Of a stretch of 6,949 bases of DNA, positions 1 to 6,949 are shown piece after piece. The notes under the pieces were generated by a model. The model made no database searches and was not told the DNA's origin. It saw only the letters and a list, made by a program, of their open reading frames with translations. Numbering within the stretch: the stretch's first letter is position 1; each line of letters begins with the position of its first letter. The position numbers and the translations under genes are program-made. Where the stretch lies: assembly GCA_946482375.1 (NCBI GenBank), contig CAMLRH010000141.1, forward strand, positions 1-6,949. Direction: 5' to 3'. The stretch comes from an uncultured Caulobacteraceae bacterium. Its GTDB lineage: Bacteria; Pseudomonadota; Alphaproteobacteria; Caulobacterales; Caulobacteraceae.

Positions 1-54
1 GTCGAACAACGAGCCCAAAGACCCGCCCAGCCGGAATCGTTCCGGGCGCGCCAT
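1..54 (-). CDS. 5' end of an unidentified gene, cut by the window edge
   Basis: Reading leftwards from 54, an ATG follows a strong Shine-Dalgarno (AAGGAG, about 3-4 nt before the ATG, at 58-63). The frame stays open for all 18 visible codons and starts MARPERFRLGGSLGSLFD. I do not recognise the family from this much. The case rests on the ribosome binding site, the correct spacing and the open frame. The gene is divergent from the Fic stub, and the 160 bp between them would hold both promoters. It is on the same strand as hipBA and the mobilization genes, so it may belong to the same element. It could still be a chance open frame, since 18 codons is little evidence. Confidence 0.5.
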   Translation of the reverse strand, partial: MARPERFRLGGSLGSLFD

Positions 55-120
55 TTTCTCCTTAAAAATCAAAGGTCGGGGGAATCGCGGCATCGCCGTG
101 AACGGCCAAAATCCGTTTAG

Positions 121-142
121 GACGGGGTTTAAGACGGGGTTT
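121..142. repeat. Two tandem copies of GACGGGGTTT, 12-nt period
   Basis: GACGGGGTTT occurs at 121-130 and again at 133-142, separated by AA. A degenerate third unit (CCGTTTAG) precedes them. They lie between the divergent starts at 54 and 218. A regulator or recombinase binding site is possible, but nothing here shows a function. Confidence 0.5.
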
Positions 143-148
143 CGGCAT

Positions 149-177
149 GAACGCCCGGAGAACACCGCCGGGCGTTC
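149..177. repeat. Perfect 10-bp inverted repeat, 9-nt loop
   Basis: GAACGCCCGG at 149-158 pairs perfectly with CCGGGCGTTC at 168-177. The GC-rich stem would make a stable hairpin, but no T-run follows on either strand, so it is not a textbook intrinsic terminator. It ends 40 nt before the Fic-stub start codon and could be an operator or a 5'-leader hairpin for that gene, or a terminator remnant. Confidence 0.6.
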
Positions 178-217
178 GCCATTGCCCGCTGCCACCGCCG
201 ATCCATCCCGAGCGTTA

Positions 218-433
218 ATGGATGAAAATGGATGGACTAATGGCACGGCCCTCGATCTTTCGACGCTTCGCGTCACGCCCGAAATCCTCTCGCTGATCGG
301 CGAGACCGATGAGTTCAGGGCAGCCTGGCGGGCGATCGGACGGATCGCGCCCGGGCGGTTGGCCAGCCTGCGCCGTGTTGCTACAGCGTTTGGTGCTAGG
401 CTAACGCCTCAAATGCCGTCTCCAACAGCTTGA
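218..433 (+). pseudogene. Truncated Fic-family protein, N-terminal stub only
   Basis: From ATG 218 about 56 codons read like the N-terminal region of bacterial Fic proteins: an LDLSTLRVTPEIL segment, then ETDEFRAAWRAIG and APGRLASLRRVAT. From memory, intact relatives continue with IESIGSSTRIEG, which holds the inhibitory (S/T)xxxE(G/N) motif, and then the catalytic HPFxxGNGR domain. Here the match ends after RRVAT, at about 385. The frame then runs antisense into the 3' end of hipA and stops at 431-433. Intact Fic proteins transfer AMP or related groups onto target proteins; this stub has neither the inhibitory motif nor the active site and should be inactive. An open frame extends upstream to 98, but that part holds the hairpin and repeats and has no Fic match. 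The family call rests on remembered consensus. Confidence 0.6.
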
Positions 434-1727
434 GGCGACTGGTCATCGCGGCCAGGACGGACTCGTGAACGGCCGGATGGAAGTCGGCGGGCATCGTGGC
501 GAGCGCCCGTTCCGCCGCCGGGATGGCGTCTCGCCTGACCTCATCCAACACTTGGCAGATGACGGCCGGGCCAAGCCCCGCTTCCTTTGCGGTCTCGACG
601 AAATGCCGACCGTGTATGTCGAGGACTTTGTATTTGCGGCTCGCGCCGACCGACATCGCCAGCTTGTATTTGTTGTGCGGGATGCGTCTGGCGTCGAAGG
701 CAGGTTGGGCGCTCAGCACGTCGTAGAAGGGCGTTAGCCCGAACCGCCCGCCGGTGCGCAGGAAGAGGCTGTAGTTTTTGCCGTGGCCGTCGGTCGCGCC
801 GATCAGCCAGAAGATGATCTGGCTTTTGAAGAAGGCCGCCTGATCCCTTAGCGGTTCGTCACTCCCTTGCAGGAGCTTGAGAATGTCGACGATGCGGGGG
901 CCGCCCTGGTTCTGATATTTCTGGGTGGAGGGGAAGGATAGCGCCTGACAGCAATCCTCCTGCGGCAGCCGCAGCAGGCCTCCGTCCTTGCGCCATAGAC
1001 GGTCGAAGCGCTCGACGACCAGCACCTTCCGTTCGCCGAAGGTCGCGATCCGCGTCTGCGCGACCTCAAGCCCGAAACCCTCCACGAGCTTGAGGCAGTA
1101 GTGCTCGTTCTCGACGCTGTCGGAGAGGTCGATCATCCCCCAGGGCGTCGGAATCTTGCCGAGCTGCGGCTTGAGGATGTGCGTCGTCGGCGTCGTGCCG
1201 ATCGGACGCATCCAACGCCCCTCATGAAAGAGAAGGGCGGTCTTCTCCTGGGCGCCCGCGACCGAGATGCGGAACTCCTGCTCGGTGTCGATGCCGAGCG
1301 GCGCGCGCGCCAGGTTGGCGAGGATGATTTCGATCTCCTCGTCGCTGACGGGCTCGCCATCAATGGGTTGGCGCGCGTCGATCTCGACGCCATCCGGCAG
1401 GAACTGCATCGCGCCCACGCAGTCGCGGCCAATCTGCTCAAGCAGGCTGTATGAGTCCGTTCCCTGCGCGCCGGTCTTCTCCGCCACGAGACGGCGGACG
1501 GTGGGATTGTCGGGCAGCAGGTTGTCGAAGACCGCGACCACCCTTTCGCCGCGAAACGCTTCCGCCCTCGGGGGAAGGGACAGCGAGATGGGAAAGTGGT
1601 GCTCCCAATCGAGCCAGCTTTGATCGTACTGGAACTGGATGGCTCCGCTGGCTTCCTTCTCCAACCGTCCTACGAGGCGATTGTTAATCAGCACATTGAG
1701 CGGCGCATGGGTCTTGCGGCGACCCAT
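396..1727 (-). CDS. hipA: HipA-family serine/threonine kinase toxin
   Basis: This is a full-length HipA (443 residues; E. coli HipA has 440) and co-linear with it. Visible motifs are FDNLLPDN (67-74) in the N-terminal subdomain, FRISVAGAQEKTALL with Ser155 matching the autophosphorylated Ser150 of E. coli, and TPTTHILKP (179-187). VVERFDR (237-243) and LLRLPQEDCCQ (251-261) follow, then the catalytic loop ATDGHGKN with Asp313, and the metal-binding TPFYD with Asp336. No key residue is missing, so an active kinase is expected. E. coli HipA phosphorylates glutamyl-tRNA synthetase (GltX), which stalls translation and causes persistence; the same target here is an inference. The ATG shares one base with the hipB stop (TGATG), the usual antitoxin-first coupled operon. 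The gene ends about 10 bp from the end of the Fic match, so it abuts a broken gene. Confidence 0.96.
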   Translation of the reverse strand: MGRRKTHAPLNVLINNRLVGRLEKEASGAIQFQYDQSWLDWEHHFPISLSLPPRAEAFRGERVVAVFDNLLPDNPTVRRLVAEKTGAQGTDSYSLLEQIGRDCVGAMQFLPDGVEIDARQPIDGEPVSDEEIEIILANLARAPLGIDTEQEFRISVAGAQEKTALLFHEGRWMRPIGTTPTTHILKPQLGKIPTPWGMIDLSDSVENEHYCLKLVEGFGLEVAQTRIATFGERKVLVVERFDRLWRKDGGLLRLPQEDCCQALSFPSTQKYQNQGGPRIVDILKLLQGSDEPLRDQAAFFKSQIIFWLIGATDGHGKNYSLFLRTGGRFGLTPFYDVLSAQPAFDARRIPHNKYKLAMSVGASRKYKVLDIHGRHFVETAKEAGLGPAVICQVLDEVRRDAIPAAERALATMPADFHPAVHESVLAAMTSRLKLLETAFEALA

Positions 1728-1978
1728 CAGAAAATGTCCTCGATGTTGACGGACGAGCCCTTTGTGCGCGGGCCGATTGTCATCTCCAGATCAAGCGCCG
1801 CCAGCAGGTCGCAGATTGAGGAAATTTTCGAGCCTTCCTGGCCGTTCTCGATCTTGGAGACAAGCTCCTGACGCAGGCCTGCGCGCGCGGCTAATTCGGT
1901 CTGACTCATGCCGCGCATCTTGCGATGCTTCTGGATGAGATTGCCGATCTGACGGGGCGAGCGGGCTATCTGATTCAT
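1727..1978 (-). CDS. hipB: HipB-family antitoxin, XRE-type helix-turn-helix repressor
   Basis: This small protein of 83 residues (E. coli HipB has 88) has a Cro/CI-type helix-turn-helix at about residues 9-64: RQIGNLIQKHRKMRG, then SQTELAARAGL and the likely recognition helix RQELVSKIENG. A short tail ends in IEDIF. It should neutralise HipA by binding it, and the HipB-HipA complex should repress the operon. I chose ATG 1978 over an in-frame TTG at 1996. The TTG lies inside operator O1 and upstream of the predicted transcription start, while 1978 sits 7 nt after a good -10 box. No Shine-Dalgarno precedes 1978, which fits a leaderless message. Its stop overlaps the hipA start by one base. The four palindromes upstream are its probable binding sites. 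Confidence 0.93.
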   Translation of the reverse strand: MNQIARSPRQIGNLIQKHRKMRGMSQTELAARAGLRQELVSKIENGQEGSKISSICDLLAALDLEMTIGPRTKGSSVNIEDIF

Positions 1979-1984
1979 AGGATC

Positions 1985-2013
1985 ATTATGCGGCAAATCA
2001 CATAAAATGGCAA
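1985..2013 (-). promoter_or_regulatory. hipBA promoter, predicted leaderless
   Basis: On the minus strand TTGCCA (2013-2008; 5/6 match to TTGACA) is followed after exactly 17 bp by CATAAT (1990-1985; 5/6 match to TATAAT). Position +7 after the -10 box is base 1978, the A of the hipB ATG. Operator O1 overlaps the -10 and the spacer, and the -35 lies in the gap between O1 and O2, so a bound repressor would block RNA polymerase. Confidence 0.7.
1987..2004. promoter_or_regulatory. hip operator O1
   Basis: TATGC-N8-ACATA is the 18-bp operator consensus TATGC-N8-GCATA with one mismatch. It covers most of the -10 box and the spacer of the hipBA promoter, so it should be the decisive repression site. 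Confidence 0.75.
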
Positions 2014-2031
2014 TATGTGTTTTTTAGCATA
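2014..2031. promoter_or_regulatory. hip operator O2
   Basis: TATGT-N8-GCATA has one mismatch to the consensus. It starts 27 bp after O1, directly upstream of the -35 hexamer. Its centre is a T-run, which may affect DNA bending. Confidence 0.75.
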
Positions 2032-2040
2032 ACTGGAAGA

Positions 2041-2058
2041 TATGCGATTCAGCGCATA
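2041..2058. promoter_or_regulatory. hip operator O3, perfect palindrome
   Basis: TATGCGATTCAGCGCATA has perfect 6-bp arms (TATGCG/CGCATA). It starts 27 bp after O2. As the only site with no mismatch it may be the tightest HipB site. Confidence 0.8.
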
Positions 2059-2067
2059 AGGTGGGAT

Positions 2068-2085
2068 TAAGCGATTTAACGCATA
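2068..2085. promoter_or_regulatory. hip operator O4
   Basis: TAAGC-N8-GCATA has one mismatch to the consensus. It starts 27 bp after O3 and is the site farthest from hipB. The 92 bp between it and the relaxase stop hold only a weak 5-bp inverted repeat (CTGCC 2091-2095, GGCAG 2105-2109) without a T-run, so I see no clear terminator between the relaxase and hipBA. Confidence 0.75.
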
Positions 2086-2177
2086 GAGTCCTGCCTTCGA
2101 GTCGGGCAGACATCGGGCTTCAGTTGGCGAGCGTTGCAGAACGGCCGCTTATGGCGCGGGCTACCGCCTGACGCCTC

Positions 2178-3203
2178 TTAGCGCTCCCGCTCCCTTTCGC
2201 CACCAGACCGTTCATGTCCCAGAGCCAGGTTCGCCGATCGCAGCTCGCGGGCCAGCGCAAGGCGGCGCGTGTCGGGTTGCGGCATGGACCGGACGAACGC
2301 CGCCACCTCCGCGCCCAGCGCACGGTCTGCCGCGTCCGGCGAGCGGATGAGGAGCTGGGCTTGGGCGAGGTAGAGGCCGCGCACCCTGGCCTGACGCTTC
2401 AACAGCTTCGTCTCCCACGTCGGCGGGCTGGGCTGCTTGCCGAAGACGGCTTTAGCGGCGTCGTGGTAGGCGGCGCGCTGCGTCCTGGGCAACTCGCCCA
2501 AGCCGGCCTGGCGCCGCTCTCGCATCTTCCTGAGCGGCGTTCGTTCGGGCTTGCGGGTGACGCCCCGCGCGCGCCTGGGCGTGGCTTCGGCTTCAACACC
2601 TCGGTCGCGGAGCGCCTGGGCGAAGACCTGGCGCCACGCCTCCAAGTCGGCCTTCTTCGGCCGCAGCCGCTCGCCGTCGTCGCCCAGCGCACGGACGGCG
2701 ATGTGGACGTGCGGGTGGCGTGTGTCGGTGTGCAGGGCGAGGGCGTAGTCGAACCGCTCGGCGAATGTCGCGCGGGCGAATTCGCGGGCCGCGTCGCGGA
2801 CGATCATCGGGTCCACCTCGGTCGGCATGGACAGCACTAGCGACAGGCTGACGGGCGTGTTGGCGCGGCGGCGGGGATCGGCCATGGCGATGGCGCTCCA
2901 GTCTTGGGCCAGTTCCTTTACTGCCACGCGGCCGGTGATAACGGCGCCGTCGCGGTCCTCCATCTCCAGCTCGCCGTTGCGGGAGATGTAGTCGAGGTGG
3001 GCGCGTAGATGGCCGGCGTCATGGGTGCACCCCGTGACCTTGACCATGACCTCGGGCGCTCGGCTTACGATCCGTGCGAGACGGGAGCGGACATCCGGGC
3101 TAGCGGCGCGGGGCGACAGGATTGCGGCGGTTTGGATGTGGCGCGGTCGGATGGGCGGGCGCCAGACATCCTCGAAGCCGGGGATGGTCTGGAAGTCGGT
3201 CAC
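2178..3203 (-). CDS. MobA/VirD2-type relaxase (mobilization nuclease)
   Basis: This 341-residue relaxase should nick the transferred strand at oriT, stay covalently bound to the 5' end and pilot the DNA into the recipient. After a basic lead (1-50), VKVTGCTHDAGHLRAHLDYI leads into SRNG; Tyr72 in DYISRNG is the likely nucleophile. The metal-binding three-histidine motif HTDTRHPHVH is at 158-167 (His158, His163, His165/167). The C-terminal half (about 200-341) is Arg- and Ala-rich and ends in ERERER; no primase or helicase domain is present. I chose GTG 3203, which overlaps the stop of the preceding MobC-like gene as GTGA and indicates translational coupling. The open frame extends up to 3611, but that part is antisense or shadow of the MobC-like gene. 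The family is clear; whether it belongs to a plasmid or an integrated element is not. Confidence 0.92.
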   Translation of the reverse strand: MTDFQTIPGFEDVWRPPIRPRHIQTAAILSPRAASPDVRSRLARIVSRAPEVMVKVTGCTHDAGHLRAHLDYISRNGELEMEDRDGAVITGRVAVKELAQDWSAIAMADPRRRANTPVSLSLVLSMPTEVDPMIVRDAAREFARATFAERFDYALALHTDTRHPHVHIAVRALGDDGERLRPKKADLEAWRQVFAQALRDRGVEAEATPRRARGVTRKPERTPLRKMRERRQAGLGELPRTQRAAYHDAAKAVFGKQPSPPTWETKLLKRQARVRGLYLAQAQLLIRSPDAADRALGAEVAAFVRSMPQPDTRRLALARELRSANLALGHERSGGERERER

Positions 3204-3724
3204 GGTCCCGCGTCCCAATAGCCGAGGTTGCCCTCGAACGCTTCGCGGAGAGCTAGCATGTGGGCGCGGATTTCGGCGCGCAGTTCGTCGAGGTAGGCGA
3301 GTTCCAGGTCGAGCACCTTGCCCTCCAGAACGGCGGTGTTGAGGGCGCGGGCGATCTGGTTGGCGTTGACGCCGATCCGGCGCAGGTCGCTTTGGATGGC
3401 GGCCAGCGCCAAGCCGTCGGACCGGCTGAAGGTCGGCCGGCTGGTCAGCCGCCGGCGGATGAGCGCGGCGGCCCAGGCGCTGCGCGTCAGGCCCATTTCG
3501 GCGGCGGCGGCGTCGAGGCCGCGCGCGTCCATCGCCGACAGCCGGACGGTGAGTTTCATCGGCTGGGCGATGCGCCGTGCTGGCGCTGGCGCGGCGATTT
3601 CTCCGCCGCAAGAGGCGCGGCTGATGAGGCGGCGCAGCGCGGCCGAACGGCCGCCACGCTCGGCGGCCCAGCCGTCGAATCGGGCCACCATCTCGTCAGG
3701 AACGCGCACGTTGATGATCGCCAT
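3200..3724 (-). CDS. MobC-like relaxosome protein with ribbon-helix-helix features
   Basis: This 174-residue accessory protein should bind oriT and load or position the relaxase. Residues 1-34 (AIINVRVPDEMVARFDGWAA, then GGRSAALRRLI) look like a CopG-type ribbon-helix-helix. Residues 56-93 (MKLTVRLSAMDARGLDAAAA, then GLTRSAWAAALIRRRL) look like a second one. Residues 116-128 (RIGVNANQIARAL) are the conserved 'iGxNxNQIArALN' segment of MobC-family proteins. A charged helical tail follows (about 140-165). ATG 3724 is the best start: it opens directly into the first beta strand, although its ribosome binding site is poor (AGATGG). Upstream in-frame sequence to 3979 has no family match and crosses the oriT candidate. 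The stop overlaps the relaxase GTG, so the two are coupled. Two DNA-binding domains in one chain is somewhat unusual for MobC. Confidence 0.82.
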   Translation of the reverse strand: MAIINVRVPDEMVARFDGWAAERGGRSAALRRLISRASCGGEIAAPAPARRIAQPMKLTVRLSAMDARGLDAAAAEMGLTRSAWAAALIRRRLTSRPTFSRSDGLALAAIQSDLRRIGVNANQIARALNTAVLEGKVLDLELAYLDELRAEIRAHMLALREAFEGNLGYWDAGP

Positions 3725-3761
3725 CGGCCGCCATCTGCGTAAGACACCGCCGCCGCTAAGG

Positions 3762-3771
3762 CTATCCTGCC
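3762..3771 (+). other. oriT: Candidate oriT nic site, RK2/IncP-like core
   Basis: CTATCCTGCC on the plus strand equals the RK2 (IncP) nic core as I recall it, and its TATCCTGCC part resembles Ti-plasmid border sequences; both are cut by relaxases of this class. The predicted nick is between G3769 and C3770. The site sits 38 bp upstream of the mobC-like start, a normal place for oriT. If it is used, DNA towards the methyltransferase would enter the recipient first and the mob genes last. Confidence 0.6.
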
Positions 3772-3808
3772 ATAGACAGCGACGGGCTGAGACTGACGCA
3801 CATTCTTC

Positions 3809-3846
3809 GGCGGACACGACGCGTAAGCTTAGGGGTCGTGTCCGCC
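3809..3846. repeat. Perfect 12-bp inverted repeat, likely oriT arm or terminator
   Basis: GGCGGACACGAC (3809-3820) and GTCGTGTCCGCC (3835-3846) are perfect complements around a 14-nt loop that contains a HindIII-type AAGCTT. The repeat lies 39 bp from the predicted nick and 35 bp downstream of the methyltransferase stop. There is no T-run on either strand, so intrinsic termination is less likely than a relaxosome-binding or strand-circularization role. In RK2 the oriT inverted repeat lies on the 5' side of nic, while this one lies on the 3' side. Confidence 0.7.
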
Positions 3847-3881
3847 ACCTCGGGGCGGTGAGGTCAAGGACGTTGGGCGAC

Positions 3882-4529
3882 CTATGCGGCCGCCCTCCGG
3901 GTCGTTTGCAGGCGTTCGGTGGCAGTGGCCTGATGGGCTCGGTCCAGTTCGATGCCGAGCCAGTCACGGCCAAGGTCACGAGCTGCTTCCAGCGTCGATC
4001 CGGAGCCGCAGAAGGGGTCCAGCACCAGCTCGCCGGGCTGGGTGAAACACTCGATCAGGGGCCGCAGCGCCTGCACGGGCTTCTGCGTCGGATGCAGCTT
4101 GTTGCCGCTGTAGGGGAAGTCGATCACGTCGGGGATGGGCCTCTCTGGATAGGGCGCGTCACCCTTCGCCAGCAGGTAGGCTTGCTCGTGCTCATAGCGC
4201 AGGAACCGGGAGCGTGAGGCGTAGCGTTTGCGGAAGATGATGTGCCCGACCATCGTGAACCCGGCCGCGCGCCAGGCGTCCACGAACAGGTCCACCTTGT
4301 TCCAGCCGTAGAAGCTGACGCACAGGCCGCCCGGCTTCAGGACGCGGCGCATCTGGTTGAACGCCGGCCTCAGCCACCGCGCGTTATCGTCGTTCGCCAC
4401 GGTGCGGCCATCCCGCCCACGATAGCGAGTGATGTAGGGCGGGTCGGTCAGGATGAAGTCCACCGAACCTCGCTCAAAGCTTCTCATCACTTCGATGCAG
4501 TCGCCGCCGATGATCGTGTTGCGGGTCAT
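3882..4529 (-). CDS. Orphan beta-class DNA methyltransferase (N6-adenine or N4-cytosine)
   Basis: This 215-residue methyltransferase transfers a methyl group from S-adenosylmethionine to an exocyclic amine of DNA. The catalytic motif IV DPPY is at 29-32 (in ILTDPPY), HPTQKP (motif X-like) at 146-151, and the SAM-binding motif I DPFCGSGST at 171-179. Motif IV before motif I is the beta-class order, shared with CcrM. DPPY favours adenine but does not prove it. It is much shorter than CcrM and lacks the C-terminal extension, so it resembles the small methyltransferases of phages and mobile elements. ATG 4529 follows a strong ribosome binding site (AAGGAGAG, 4543-4536). The open frame runs on to 4787 but carries no family match there. 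No restriction enzyme is adjacent. A likely role is protecting transferred DNA from host restriction, which is an inference. Confidence 0.9.
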   Translation of the reverse strand: MTRNTIIGGDCIEVMRSFERGSVDFILTDPPYITRYRGRDGRTVANDDNARWLRPAFNQMRRVLKPGGLCVSFYGWNKVDLFVDAWRAAGFTMVGHIIFRKRYASRSRFLRYEHEQAYLLAKGDAPYPERPIPDVIDFPYSGNKLHPTQKPVQALRPLIECFTQPGELVLDPFCGSGSTLEAARDLGRDWLGIELDRAHQATATERLQTTRRAAA

Positions 4530-4562
4530 GTTCTTCTCTCCTTCCTGATACCCCCTTGGGGC

Positions 4563-4577
4563 GCAGCGCCGCGCTGC
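4563..4577. repeat. 7-bp perfect inverted repeat
   Basis: GCAGCGC and GCGCTGC flank a single C. The repeat lies in the 5' leader or promoter region of the methyltransferase, about 35-50 bp upstream of its start. It may be an operator or a leader hairpin. Confidence 0.5.
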
Positions 4578-4613
4578 AACCCTGCCTCGTGGCGAACAGC
4601 CTGGAGCGTGGGG

Positions 4614-4684
4614 GCAATGGCGATCGGCCGGGGTCTTGGTGCGGGCGCAGCGCAGCGAGCCACGGCCCGGCCGATCGCCATTGC
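4614..4684. repeat. Perfect 19-bp inverted repeat with 33-nt centre
   Basis: GCAATGGCGATCGGCCGGG (4614-4632) and its exact complement CCCGGCCGATCGCCATTGC (4666-4684) flank 33 nt. Chance symmetry of this length is unlikely, even at this GC content. It lies between the divergent methyltransferase and sigma-factor genes, in a stretch (4530-4804) with no gene I can support. Possible roles are an origin or partition site, a recombination site, or a bidirectional terminator/cruciform at a module boundary. Nothing in the window decides among them. Confidence 0.85.
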
Positions 4685-4714
4685 GGGGAGAGAGGGCGGA
4701 GCGCCTCTTTCCCC
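4685..4714. repeat. 11-bp near-perfect inverted repeat next to the 19-bp repeat
   Basis: GGGGAGAGAGG (4685-4695) pairs with CCTCTTTCCCC (4704-4714) with one G-T wobble and an 8-nt loop. It begins on the base right after the 19-bp repeat, so the two form back-to-back dyads. No T-run follows. Purines are on one strand and pyrimidines on the other. Confidence 0.6.
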
Positions 4715-4738
4715 CCTTCCGTCCTCGGCGCCGCCGGC

Positions 4739-4744
4739 TTGACA
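4739..4744 (+). promoter_or_regulatory. Consensus -35 hexamer upstream of the sigma-factor gene
   Basis: TTGACA is a perfect -35 match 61 bp before the chosen sigma-factor start. No convincing -10 lies at 16-18 bp; the nearest T/A-rich piece (CTTTTAC, 4765-4771) is too far. It may be a housekeeping promoter with an atypical -10, or chance. Confidence 0.3.
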
Positions 4745-4804
4745 TCCCCTGTGCGCGGCCCAGCCTTTTACGCGCACGCTCGTGCACGTGAGGCAGTCGG
4801 GGCA

Positions 4805-5362
4805 GTGGGCAAGAACGGGCCAGTCAACATCGAGGAGGACGAAGCCGAGCAGCTGGTCGCTCGCTTCCGCGGCCCCTTGCTCGCCTTTTTCCGCCGCCGG
4901 GTGCGCGAGCCGCAGGACGCCGAGGACCTCACGCAGGAGGTCTTCCTGCGCCTCATGAGGCGCGACGAGGCCGTCCCCGTCGACAACCCGGAGATCTACG
5001 TCTTCCGCATCGCCGCCAACCTGCTGCGCGACCGCGCCCGCCGCGCCGCCAGCCACCGGGCGGCCGAACACACCAGCCTGGAGGATCTCGTCGAGGCCAC
5101 CATGGAGGCGCGGACCATCGAGGCCGCGCTGCTGGAGGATCGGGGCCCCGAGCGCGTCCTTCTCAGTCAGGAGACCCTGATGGAGGTGGTGCGCGCGCTC
5201 GACGAACTGGGCCCTGTGACCCGCGACATTTTCCTGCTCGCGCGCCTGGAGAAGATGAAGCACCGCGACATCGCCGCCGCCTATGGCATGGCCGTCAGCA
5301 CGGTCGAAAAGCACGTCGCGCGCGGCTCGGTGCATCTGGTCAGAAGGTTTGGTGTGCGATGA
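4805..5362 (+). CDS. FecI-like ECF sigma factor
   Basis: This 185-residue extracytoplasmic-function sigma factor directs RNA polymerase to the genes of a surface-signalling regulon. Sigma region 2 spans about residues 13-80: LVARFRGPLLAFFRRRV, then the DAEDLTQEVFLRLMRR core-binding helix and YVFRIAANLLRDRARR for -10 recognition. Region 4 spans about 123-182: VVRALDELGPVTRDIFLLAR, then KHRDIAAAYGMAVSTVEKHV, a helix-turn-helix for the -35. There is no region 1.1 or 3, as is normal for ECF factors. GTG 4805 is the best start, as it gives the usual family length. Its ribosome binding site is weak (CGGGG). In-frame GTG 4751 is the alternative, but the sequence between has no family look. The stop overlaps the fecR start (ATGA), so the two are coupled. 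Confidence 0.93.
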   Translation: MGKNGPVNIEEDEAEQLVARFRGPLLAFFRRRVREPQDAEDLTQEVFLRLMRRDEAVPVDNPEIYVFRIAANLLRDRARRAASHRAAEHTSLEDLVEATMEARTIEAALLEDRGPERVLLSQETLMEVVRALDELGPVTRDIFLLARLEKMKHRDIAAAYGMAVSTVEKHVARGSVHLVRRFGVR

Positions 5363-6390
5363 CCAACGCGATGACACCCGCAGCCACCGTCACCGACGAG
5401 ATGCTCGAGGCCGCCACCCTGTGGCGCCAGCGCCGCGACCAGGGCGAATGGACCATCGACGACGAGGCCGAGCTCGAAGTCTGGCTTCAGGCCGACGAGC
5501 GCCACGTCCACGCCTACGACATGGTCGGCGAAGTCCACGACTTCCTCGACCGCCACGCCGCCTCGCCCGAGCTGATCGGCGTGCGCCGCGACCTGCTCGG
5601 CCGTTTCCAGCGACAGGTCAGGGGCCGCTGGACCGGCAAACCCGCCCAGCCCAGCCGCCGTGCCATCGCCGCGGTCCTCGTCGCCGGCGTGGTCGGCGCC
5701 GCCGGCGGCCTGGTCGTCATGAACCAGGGCGAAGTCTATCGCACCGGCCTTGGCGAGCGGCGCGTGGTCATGCTCAAGGACGGCTCGACGCTGTCCCTCG
5801 ACGCCATTAGCCGGGTGAGCGTGCGCTACTCCAAGAACGAGCGGCGCCTGGAGCTCCAGCAAGGCCAGGCCCGGTTTGACGTCGCCCACGACACCTTGCG
5901 GCCGTTCAGCGTGGTCGCCCGTGATCGCGAGGTGATCGCCACCGGTACCGCCTTCAACATCGACATGGTCTCGCCCGAGGTGCGGGTGACCCTGATCGAG
6001 GGACGGGTCCTGGTTCTGCCCCGGGCGCCCAGCCTCCTGCGTCAGGAGCCGGCCGCGCGGAAGACGGTCGAGCTGCACGCTGGCCAGGCGCTGGTCGTCA
6101 AACCCACCGCCGCTGCCGACGTGGTCAAGCCGACCGACCTCGCGCAGGCCACCGCCTGGCAGCAGGGGCAGCTGATGTTCGAGGATGAGCCGCTGGGCCA
6201 GGCCGTCGAGCGCGTGAACCGCTACACCGAACGCAAGATCGTCGTCGCCGACGCCAGGGCCGCCGCCCTGCCGATCACCGGCGCGTTCAACGCCGGCGAC
6301 GTCAAAGCCTTCCTCGAGTCGGTCGACGAGTTCCATCCGGTGCAGGTCGTGTACGGCCCGGACGAGGTTGTTATCCAATCAAATCAATAA
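5359..6390 (+). CDS. FecR-type transmembrane anti-sigma factor and sensor
   Basis: This 343-residue inner-membrane protein should hold the preceding sigma factor and relay the signal from the outer-membrane receptor. The N-terminal cytoplasmic part (about 12-55) matches the FecR N-terminal (DUF4880) type, with ATLWRQRRDQGEWTIDDEAE followed by WLQADERHVHAYD. One membrane segment is at about 102-121, after basic residues (SRR), which puts the C-terminus in the periplasm. The FecR domain follows (about 125-220): VMLKDGSTLSLDAISRVSV, LELQQGQARFDVAHD, and PFSVVARDREVIATGTAFNI. A C-terminal STN-like part (DUF4974 type, about 268-340) carries LMFEDEPLGQAVERVNRYT. The 4-nt overlap with the sigma gene supports balanced production of the pair. 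All expected parts are present and the length is normal. Confidence 0.93.
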   Translation: MTNAMTPAATVTDEMLEAATLWRQRRDQGEWTIDDEAELEVWLQADERHVHAYDMVGEVHDFLDRHAASPELIGVRRDLLGRFQRQVRGRWTGKPAQPSRRAIAAVLVAGVVGAAGGLVVMNQGEVYRTGLGERRVVMLKDGSTLSLDAISRVSVRYSKNERRLELQQGQARFDVAHDTLRPFSVVARDREVIATGTAFNIDMVSPEVRVTLIEGRVLVLPRAPSLLRQEPAARKTVELHAGQALVVKPTAAADVVKPTDLAQATAWQQGQLMFEDEPLGQAVERVNRYTERKIVVADARAAALPITGAFNAGDVKAFLESVDEFHPVQVVYGPDEVVIQSNQ

Positions 6391-6401
6391 CATGGTTTGA
6401 A

Positions 6402-6432
6402 CGCGCACGATTTGCGCGAGGCCTCCTGGAGG
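6402..6432. repeat. Two small hairpins in the fecR-receptor gap
   Basis: CGCGCA/TGCGCG (6402-6407 and 6413-6418, 5-nt loop) is followed by CCTCC-T-GGAGG (6422-6432). They lie in the 126-bp gap after the fecR stop. No T-run follows, so termination is uncertain; they may reduce read-through. I see no clear FecI-type promoter for the receptor in this gap. Confidence 0.4.
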
Positions 6433-6516
6433 AATCCGGCACCGCGTGCGTCCATCCCAGCAGGAGCCGCCCAGCCAAGCGGCCCTGCAAACACAAGACC
6501 CAAGGGGGAGGGGCAC

Positions 6517-6949
6517 ATGGGCGCTCATCGAAGGAATATCCGCAAGCTTAGTCTGGCTGGAACCGCCATGGCCGGCGCACTCGGCCTGATGGCCGCTCCG
6601 GCCTACGCGCAAGAGCAGACGTTCGAGCTTGATGTCCCCTCGCAACGGCTGGACACGGCGCTGCGCGCCTTCGCCCAGCAGTCGCGCCAGCAACTCATGT
6701 TCGCGGTCGCCGACACCAAGGGTTTCAACGCCCCGGCGCTGAACGGCAGCTATACGGCCGACCAGGCGATCGGAACGCTGCTCGCGGGGACCGGCCTGGA
6801 GGTCCATCGAAACGCCGCCGGCGTCTTCCTGATCGCGAGCGCCTCCGACCCCCAGTCCGGCAGCGCCGCGGGGGGCGGCGCTGAGGTCGAGGCTCTGATC
6901 GTCACCGCGCAGAAGCGCGAAGAAGACATCCAGGACGTGCCGATCGCGA
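6517..6949 (+). CDS. TonB-dependent outer-membrane receptor with STN domain (5' part)
   Basis: The first 144 codons of a receptor gene that runs off the window. ATG 6517 follows a strong ribosome binding site (GGGGGAGGGG, 6504-6513). Residues 1-31 are a signal peptide: basic start (AHRRNIRK), hydrophobic core, and AYA|QEQ cleavage. Residues about 33-107 are an STN (secretin/TonB short N-terminal) domain, with PSQRLDTALRAFAQQSRQQL, then GSYTADQAIGTLLAGTGLEV and AGVFLIA. A Gly/Ser/Ala linker leads to a TonB-box-like EALIVTAQKRE (126-136) and the start of the plug (DIQDVPIA). The STN domain marks it as a transducer that contacts FecR, which fits the sigma-FecR pair upstream. The plug and barrel, which decide the substrate, are not visible, so iron, haem, glycan or another ligand cannot be told apart. 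Confidence 0.93.
   Translation, partial: MGAHRRNIRKLSLAGTAMAGALGLMAAPAYAQEQTFELDVPSQRLDTALRAFAQQSRQQLMFAVADTKGFNAPALNGSYTADQAIGTLLAGTGLEVHRNAAGVFLIASASDPQSGSAAGGGAEVEALIVTAQKREEDIQDVPIA

Follow-up and report, generated by a model that had tools for sequence, protein, structure and literature searches.

Cooperative binding of HipB to four operators has been described for E. coli, with a 70-degree bend in the operator DNA; HipA acts as a co-repressor that flanks the HipB dimer, according to the available excerpts of the source (PMC3920265). The hipA7 substitution G22S has been suggested to interfere with the dimerization of HipA in the complex at the E. coli promoter, and Caulobacter hipBA1 and hipBA2 carry series of inverted repeats at intervals described as consistent with the E. 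coli higher-order complex (both from excerpts of PMC7029023). Caulobacter crescentus hipBA1 and hipBA2 are each credited with three operators (PMC8545095, excerpt). In Legionella, HipBST has three conserved, evenly spaced operators with 53-bp gaps, which are bound by HipB (PMC10653801, excerpt). Series of inverted repeats in hip systems are therefore already known, and a uniform 27-bp step was not found in the literature searched. Within that literature, hipBA was never paired with 27 bp, nor were HipB, HipA, 'recognition helix' and 'specificity' found together. Where HipB and 27 bp do occur in the same print, the 27 bp belongs, in the excerpts available, to VapBC DNA or NrdR spacers.

The window (the whole 6,949-nt stretch of DNA analysed) contains a two-gene operon (Table 1) whose products find their best matches among solved structures in E. 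coli HipB and HipA. The HipA protein bears the HipA kinase domains, and a gene with an XRE-type HTH lies directly upstream, the hipA start and the hipB stop overlapping by 1 nt; this arrangement marks the locus as a probable hipBA type II toxin–antitoxin operon with putative toxicity and neutralisation. The window HipB scores below the curated cut-offs of NCBIfam NF007271 (39.6 against 79 bits) and TIGR03070 (50.1 against 71.65 bits), and so it is better described as a HipB-like antitoxin than as the E. coli equivalog. It aligns without gaps to the solved E. coli HipB; this alignment, together with the general architecture of XRE-type HTH proteins, places the recognition helix at residues 36–41 (R36-Q37-E38-L39-V40-S41).

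Genes for a MobC-like protein, a MobP1-like relaxase and a PRK13699-type DNA methyltransferase (2178–4787) adjoin hipBA, as on a mobilizable island; they share the hipBA strand, and the relaxase scores below the cut-off of its family. A mobile cassette shared with the mob genes was considered and rejected, these neighbours being absent from the other loci within flanks of 1.5–4 kb, which are often cut. A divergent gene using the same array was also discarded, as none occurs among the annotated ORFs; the relaxase-like gene (2178–3611) lies on the hipBA strand and ends before the array. A search of a plasmid collection with window positions 1–4800 returned no place covering 80% of the query, and RNA family and tRNA searches of the window found none. 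The plus strand of 4556–6948 encodes a FecI-like sigma factor and a FecR-like regulator, together with the first part of a FecA-like TonB receptor.

Table 1. Features of the hipBA locus and of its predicted promoter and operators
Feature	Coordinates	Strand	Description
hipA, putative kinase toxin	396..1727	-	443 aa; Couple_hipA (PF13657) and HipA_C (PF07804) far above cut-off
hipB, putative antitoxin/repressor	1727..1978	-	83 aa; XRE-type HTH; HTH_3 above cut-off
Predicted -10 CATAAT	1985..1990	-	covers the last four bases of operator 1; hipB ATG 6 nt on
Predicted operator 1	1987..2004	-	TATGTGATTTGCCGCATA on the minus strand; 1 mismatch; closest to hipB; end contributes to predicted -10
Predicted -35 TTGCCA	2008..2013	-	inside the linker (9 bp) that separates operator 1 from operator 2
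Predicted operator 2	2014..2031	-	1 mismatch; abuts the upstream edge of predicted -35
Predicted operator 3	2041..2058	-	0 mismatches (perfect TATGC-N8-GCATA)
Predicted operator 4	2068..2085	-	1 mismatch; most distant from hipB

A scan of the window for TATGC-N8-GCATA with up to two mismatches returns exactly four matches, just upstream of hipB (ATG at 1978, minus strand). They are the four 18-bp palindromes, one perfect and three with a single mismatch, that a preliminary description of this DNA had reported, and the mismatch counts (1, 1, 0, 1), the three linkers of 9 bp and the resulting step of 27/27/27 all agree with it. Its statement that neighbouring sites lie on nearly opposite faces of the helix is approximately right, since 27 bp at 10.5 bp per turn corresponds to 206 degrees; the companion statement, on every second site facing the same side, holds only roughly, 54 bp being 51 degrees out of register.

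Taken singly, the sites are weak evidence, as 1.06 chance matches are expected in the window at up to two mismatches and 6 of 200 dinucleotide shuffles of the window reach four. It is the shared register that excludes chance. A site with at most one mismatch occurs in base-shuffled copies of the window with a per-position frequency of 8.2e-6, from which the expected number of runs of four such sites at a constant step is about 3e-17 for the window. The array has a G+C content of 37% against 67% for the window; recalculated for the base composition of the array, the value at one given start is about 2e-18. The AT-rich stretch could invite the reading that the palindromes are a product of chance or low complexity, or that they bind some other regulator, HipB binding being a prediction. 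The four-site register rules out a chance or low-complexity origin, and the regulator is taken up below with the operator letters.

The four operators of E. coli K-12 MG1655, given in the preliminary description as TATCC-N8-GGATA, are indeed present in that genome in the same number and N8 layout, all of them perfect. Both promoters have four 18-bp palindromes with an N8 centre and TAT...ATA ends, followed downstream by overlapping hipB and hipA genes. They differ in the half-site, where the fourth base of each arm has changed (TATGC in the window, TATCC in E. coli), in HipB (R36/E38 in the window, K38/A40 in E. coli) and in the step, which is 27/27/27 in the window and an uneven 28/39/28 in E. 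coli; equal steps are thus dispensable for hip repression.

For a survey of relatives, loci were ranked by HipA similarity with the promoters ignored. The best 80 of 449 loci (57–86% identity) together with the window include 79 with at least 450 bp of upstream DNA, of which 67 are distinct at <90% promoter identity; L014 and L067, with short upstream DNA, and 12 near-duplicates were left out. In these 67 promoters, adjacent exact TAT-N12-ATA cores are 27 bp apart in 123 of 128 pairs, the remaining distances being 81 bp (3), 26 bp (1) and 54 bp (1), and 200 shuffles yielded no core pair at 27 bp. When chains at step 27 are counted with at most one mismatch in the six core positions, one promoter has five sites, 40 have four, 18 have three and 8 have fewer; a chain of at least three sites at step 27 is present in 59 of the 67 promoters, and no alternative step between 20 and 39 gives one in more than a single promoter. 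Of 70 promoters, one has an exact core where a fifth operator would lie.

A wider set of 83 distinct promoters (HipA identity at least 43.7%), which contains the first set, has 140 of 151 adjacent cores at 27 bp; its cut-off was chosen after looking at the promoters and excludes E. coli, Enterobacter mori with its 28-bp step, and the two loci L128 and L135, which have no array. For this count, 34 of 169 HipA rows were dropped at ≥95% identity. Steps are mixed at about 39–44% HipA identity, with 28 bp in E. coli, Enterobacter mori and L134 and 27 bp in L131 and L160. No 27- or 28-bp pair was found in L128, L135, L158, L161 and L162 (HipA identity 41–44%); L162 has one core pair 55 bp apart. A looser rule, by which any single 27- or 54-bp pair suffices, labels 78 distinct rows as 27-step. 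The counts of 123/128 and 140/151 are independent of this label; it underlies the TTG count in 71 promoters and the covariation and start counts in 76 promoters given below, which use a 27-bp grid with at most one core mismatch. For the residue comparison, 15 rows of HipA >41% identity are labelled as having no array: the five loci without a pair named above, and L010, L033, L044, L045, L046, L049, L052, L058, L067 (no upstream DNA) and L076. Among these, L010, L044–L046 and L049 carry three or four imperfect sites at step 27; L067 and L076 (no hipB match) were omitted from the per-promoter survey of imperfect sites and leaders.

It is the length of the linkers, not their letters, that is conserved. 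Identity between promoters is 35% in the second linker, against 37% (37.3%) for random linkers, and the distance from the array to the hipB start differs among relatives; between-promoter identity is 47% in the last (promoter) linker and 76% in the arms of the last site. This points to a role of the fixed spacing as such in repression of the operon by the protein complex. An even step might otherwise be the inherited, unselected relic of a 27-bp tandem duplication, a reading that fits repeat units alike in arms and length and a layout common to relatives. It is very improbable, and was rejected because of the linkers within one promoter, which resemble one another no more than random ones do (37.5% against 37.3% identity); moreover, the step persists to about 44% HipA identity, by which the second linker has been randomised and the array-to-start distance has changed.

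The array is interlocked with a predicted promoter. The sequence TTGCCA-17-CATAAT (2013–1985, minus strand) is the only promoter-like site in 1900–2200, with a score of 10/12 (mean number in shuffles 0.3); as its -35 falls in a linker and its -10 overlaps operator 1, the hipB-proximal operator sits inside a sigma-70-like promoter. The same scan of the E. coli hip promoter gave no match. The last linker begins with TTG in 51 of 71 promoters, the previous, upstream one in 0 of 68; with TTG missing from 20 of the 71 last linkers, the interlock falls short of being universal. These figures bear on the proposal that the promoter alone fixes the step, an operator having to fit between the -35 and the -10 and the -35 having to fit into a 9-bp linker. 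The frequent TTG and the 10/12 promoter of the window agree with it, but it accounts for one gap of three: the upstream gaps, with no TTG in the second linker, are still 27 bp although they lie outside the promoter, and on this ground a promoter-only constraint, improbable overall, was rejected.

Most hipB starts in the 76 promoters fall into two length groups, 8–9 nt and 18–26 nt after the last operator. In 17 promoters, the start is no more than 10 nt past the last operator (8 nt in 13, 9 nt in 3 and 4 nt in 1), with TTG in 16 and a Shine–Dalgarno-like word in 0, a count biased by length, as a 4-base match is less easily accommodated in a gap of 8 nt than in one of 20 nt. Starts at 18–26 nt are found in 41 (TTG in 37, Shine–Dalgarno-like word in 40), those at 11–17 nt in 10 (TTG in 0, Shine–Dalgarno-like word in 7) and those farther away or unplaced in 8 (TTG in 1, Shine–Dalgarno-like word in 6). 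The hipB start region of the window (1976–2013) contains no Shine–Dalgarno-like word, and, with the ATG 6 nt past the predicted -10, the mRNA would begin at the ATG; the hipB mRNA of the window thus looks leaderless. Leaderless mRNAs are common in Caulobacter, with 375 such mRNAs given in an excerpt of PMC4117421. In the closest relatives (L002–L005, among the best 80 of 449 loci), hipB has a leader with an AGGAG-like word. A three-codon frame, ATG ATC CTA TGA (1975–1986, minus strand), begins 8 nt before the hipB ATG; its stop overlaps this ATG out of frame, and it is probably a product of chance.

The letters of the half-sites vary together with HipB. Varying HipB residues were compared with half-site positions 4–8 in 76 promoters, kinship being uncorrected; the highest mutual information, 0.92 bits, is that between residue 38 and base 4. 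Of 38 promoters with Glu38, 36 have G as base 4, as against 2 of the 38 without it, and base 6 is G in 43 of 53 promoters with Arg36 and in 0 of 23 with other residues. Helices of the form RQE[LM] pair with TATGC (22/23), [GHQY]QKT with TATACC (18/20) and RQAT with TATACG (8/8); the E. coli helix KQAT pairs with TATCC. RQET is less clean (n = 13; TATGCG 7, TATGGG 3, TATCGG 2, TATGAT 1). On a HipA tree, built quickly with LG+G4, no mixture model and long-branch warnings, residue 38 changed between Glu and other residues at least 7 times and base 4 between G and other bases at least 11 times, so residue 38 cannot explain every change of base 4. Five independent pairs on supported branches vary at residue 38 and base 4 in the same direction 4.6 times on average and in the opposite direction never, the lowest possible p of a sign test on five pairs being 0.0625. 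For Arg36 and base 6, five independent pairs vary in the same direction 3.9 times and never in the opposite one, which is weaker than for residue 38. Glu38 and Arg36 would accordingly be candidates for setting half-site positions 4 and 6. Since the letters track the recognition helix, HipB of the same operon is the natural reader of the palindromes.

Ten genomes holding relatives, picked from the matches, were searched for exact pairs of TATGC-N8-GCATA sites separated by any gap from 2 to 30 bp. Such pairs occur at 6 places in 5 of the 10 chosen genomes, always with a gap of 9 bp and always inside hip promoters. A single exact pair, with a gap of 25 bp, was found in 385 genomes drawn from the class; this lone pair (L087, G245) has no HipA within the 1.7 kb examined. 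Binding by a regulator other than HipB, like a chance origin, is scarcely credible given that the letters follow the same operon's recognition helix and that exact pairs are found in hip promoters and are nearly absent from the class at large. The preliminary description had interpreted the array as HipB operators and had looked to homologues for confirmation: hipBA relatives keep the palindromes and the 27-bp step, and their operator letters follow the HipB helix, which supports this interpretation at the level of sequence.

The palindromes are thus best read as the predicted operators of an autoregulated hipBA operon, autorepression included, with a probability of roughly 85%. A HipB dimer would read each TATGC half-site with its recognition helix. 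Operator 1, between the -35 and the -10 and overlapping the latter, and operator 2, abutting the -35, would exclude RNA polymerase when occupied. The two upstream operators, outside the promoter, would keep the 27-bp step because adjacent HipB2–HipA2 complexes touch, and the array would fill cooperatively, holding HipA inactive. When the level of HipB drops, the array would empty and the operon would be derepressed.

That neighbouring complexes are bridged by a HipA–HipA contact, which sets the equal step, is given somewhat better than even odds. The step could instead come from HipB–HipB contacts or DNA bending, HipA not bridging the sites; HipB and DNA are the direct partners in both the covariation and the step, and E. 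coli HipB, in the excerpted account, binds its four operators cooperatively (PMC3920265). This alternative shares the operator identity with the preferred explanation, so that the odds of the two are not exclusive; it is unlikely, although it retains appreciable weight. With 9 bp between operators and, in E. coli, HipA placed at the flanks of the complexed HipB dimer, as excerpted (PMC3920265), HipA is the likelier neighbour, and HipA dimerization has been proposed for the E. coli promoter complex (PMC7029023, excerpt).

The bridging contact was also considered through HipA residues. Gly22 is present in 107 of 107 27-step rows, in 11 of 18 50-step rows and in 32 of 42 rows where no array was detected, the row counts for this residue and for Asp291 including unthinned close kin and being uncorrected for kinship. 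Asp291, which we take to be the other hipA7 position, is present in 101 of 107, 10 of 18 and 32 of 42 rows, respectively. Because Gly22 is also frequent outside the 27-step group and close kin are unthinned, it lends weak support to a HipA contact. The columns of E. coli HipA S150 and D309, presumably functional residues (E. coli numbering), are conserved in 107 of 107 27-step rows, window included.

Regular arrays of another kind occur in another HipBA clade. Among 45 distinct HipA rows of <41% identity, 29 promoters contain a TTCCCG-N2-CGGGAA-like site, and 33 of 42 adjacent distances are 47–51 bp, in 18 promoters, 13 of which have three sites in a row; the letters TTCCCG were derived from the same promoters that they describe, but the 50-bp step was not. 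The promoters with a 47–51-bp step (L097, L106, L107, L109, L110, L136–L143, L163, L183, L186, L188 and L191) have 14-bp sites, and their HipA proteins are about 30–35% identical. Like the window, this class has a regular operator-like array upstream of hipB; the window has no TTCCCG-N2-CGGGAA palindromes about 50 bp apart and does not belong to it. It may be guessed that the sites of Caulobacter crescentus hipBA1 and hipBA2, three each in the excerpted account against four in the window, are of the 50-bp class. Legionella HipBST also differs from the window, as far as its excerpted description goes, in having three sites, six-base arms, 53-bp gaps and a three-gene system. In view of the 50-bp class and Legionella HipBST, fixed, clade-specific operator steps may be general in Hip systems.

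A more far-reaching reading, tentative as a whole, is that operator spacing measures the HipA–HipA contact. The even 27-bp array would then assemble HipB2–HipA2 complexes into one continuous promoter chain, E. coli with 28/39/28 would form two pairs, and each HipBA clade would have its own fixed step, with letters varying with HipB residue 38. Across Hip systems, the steps of 27, 28, 39, 50 and 71 bp have a similar helical phase of 0.57–0.76 turn at 10.5 bp, which serves as a lead only. If this joint reading were true, the array would hold a stock of inactive kinase, and the number of sites would determine how large that stock is.

Among persistence operons hipBA is the founding one, and the complex at its promoter in E. 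coli serves as the model of how DNA-bound HipA is kept inactive. The dozens of natural promoters with a fixed step and with letters tracking two HipB residues provide a test of HipB–DNA against HipA–HipA contacts, and hip operators may become predictable from the HipB sequence.
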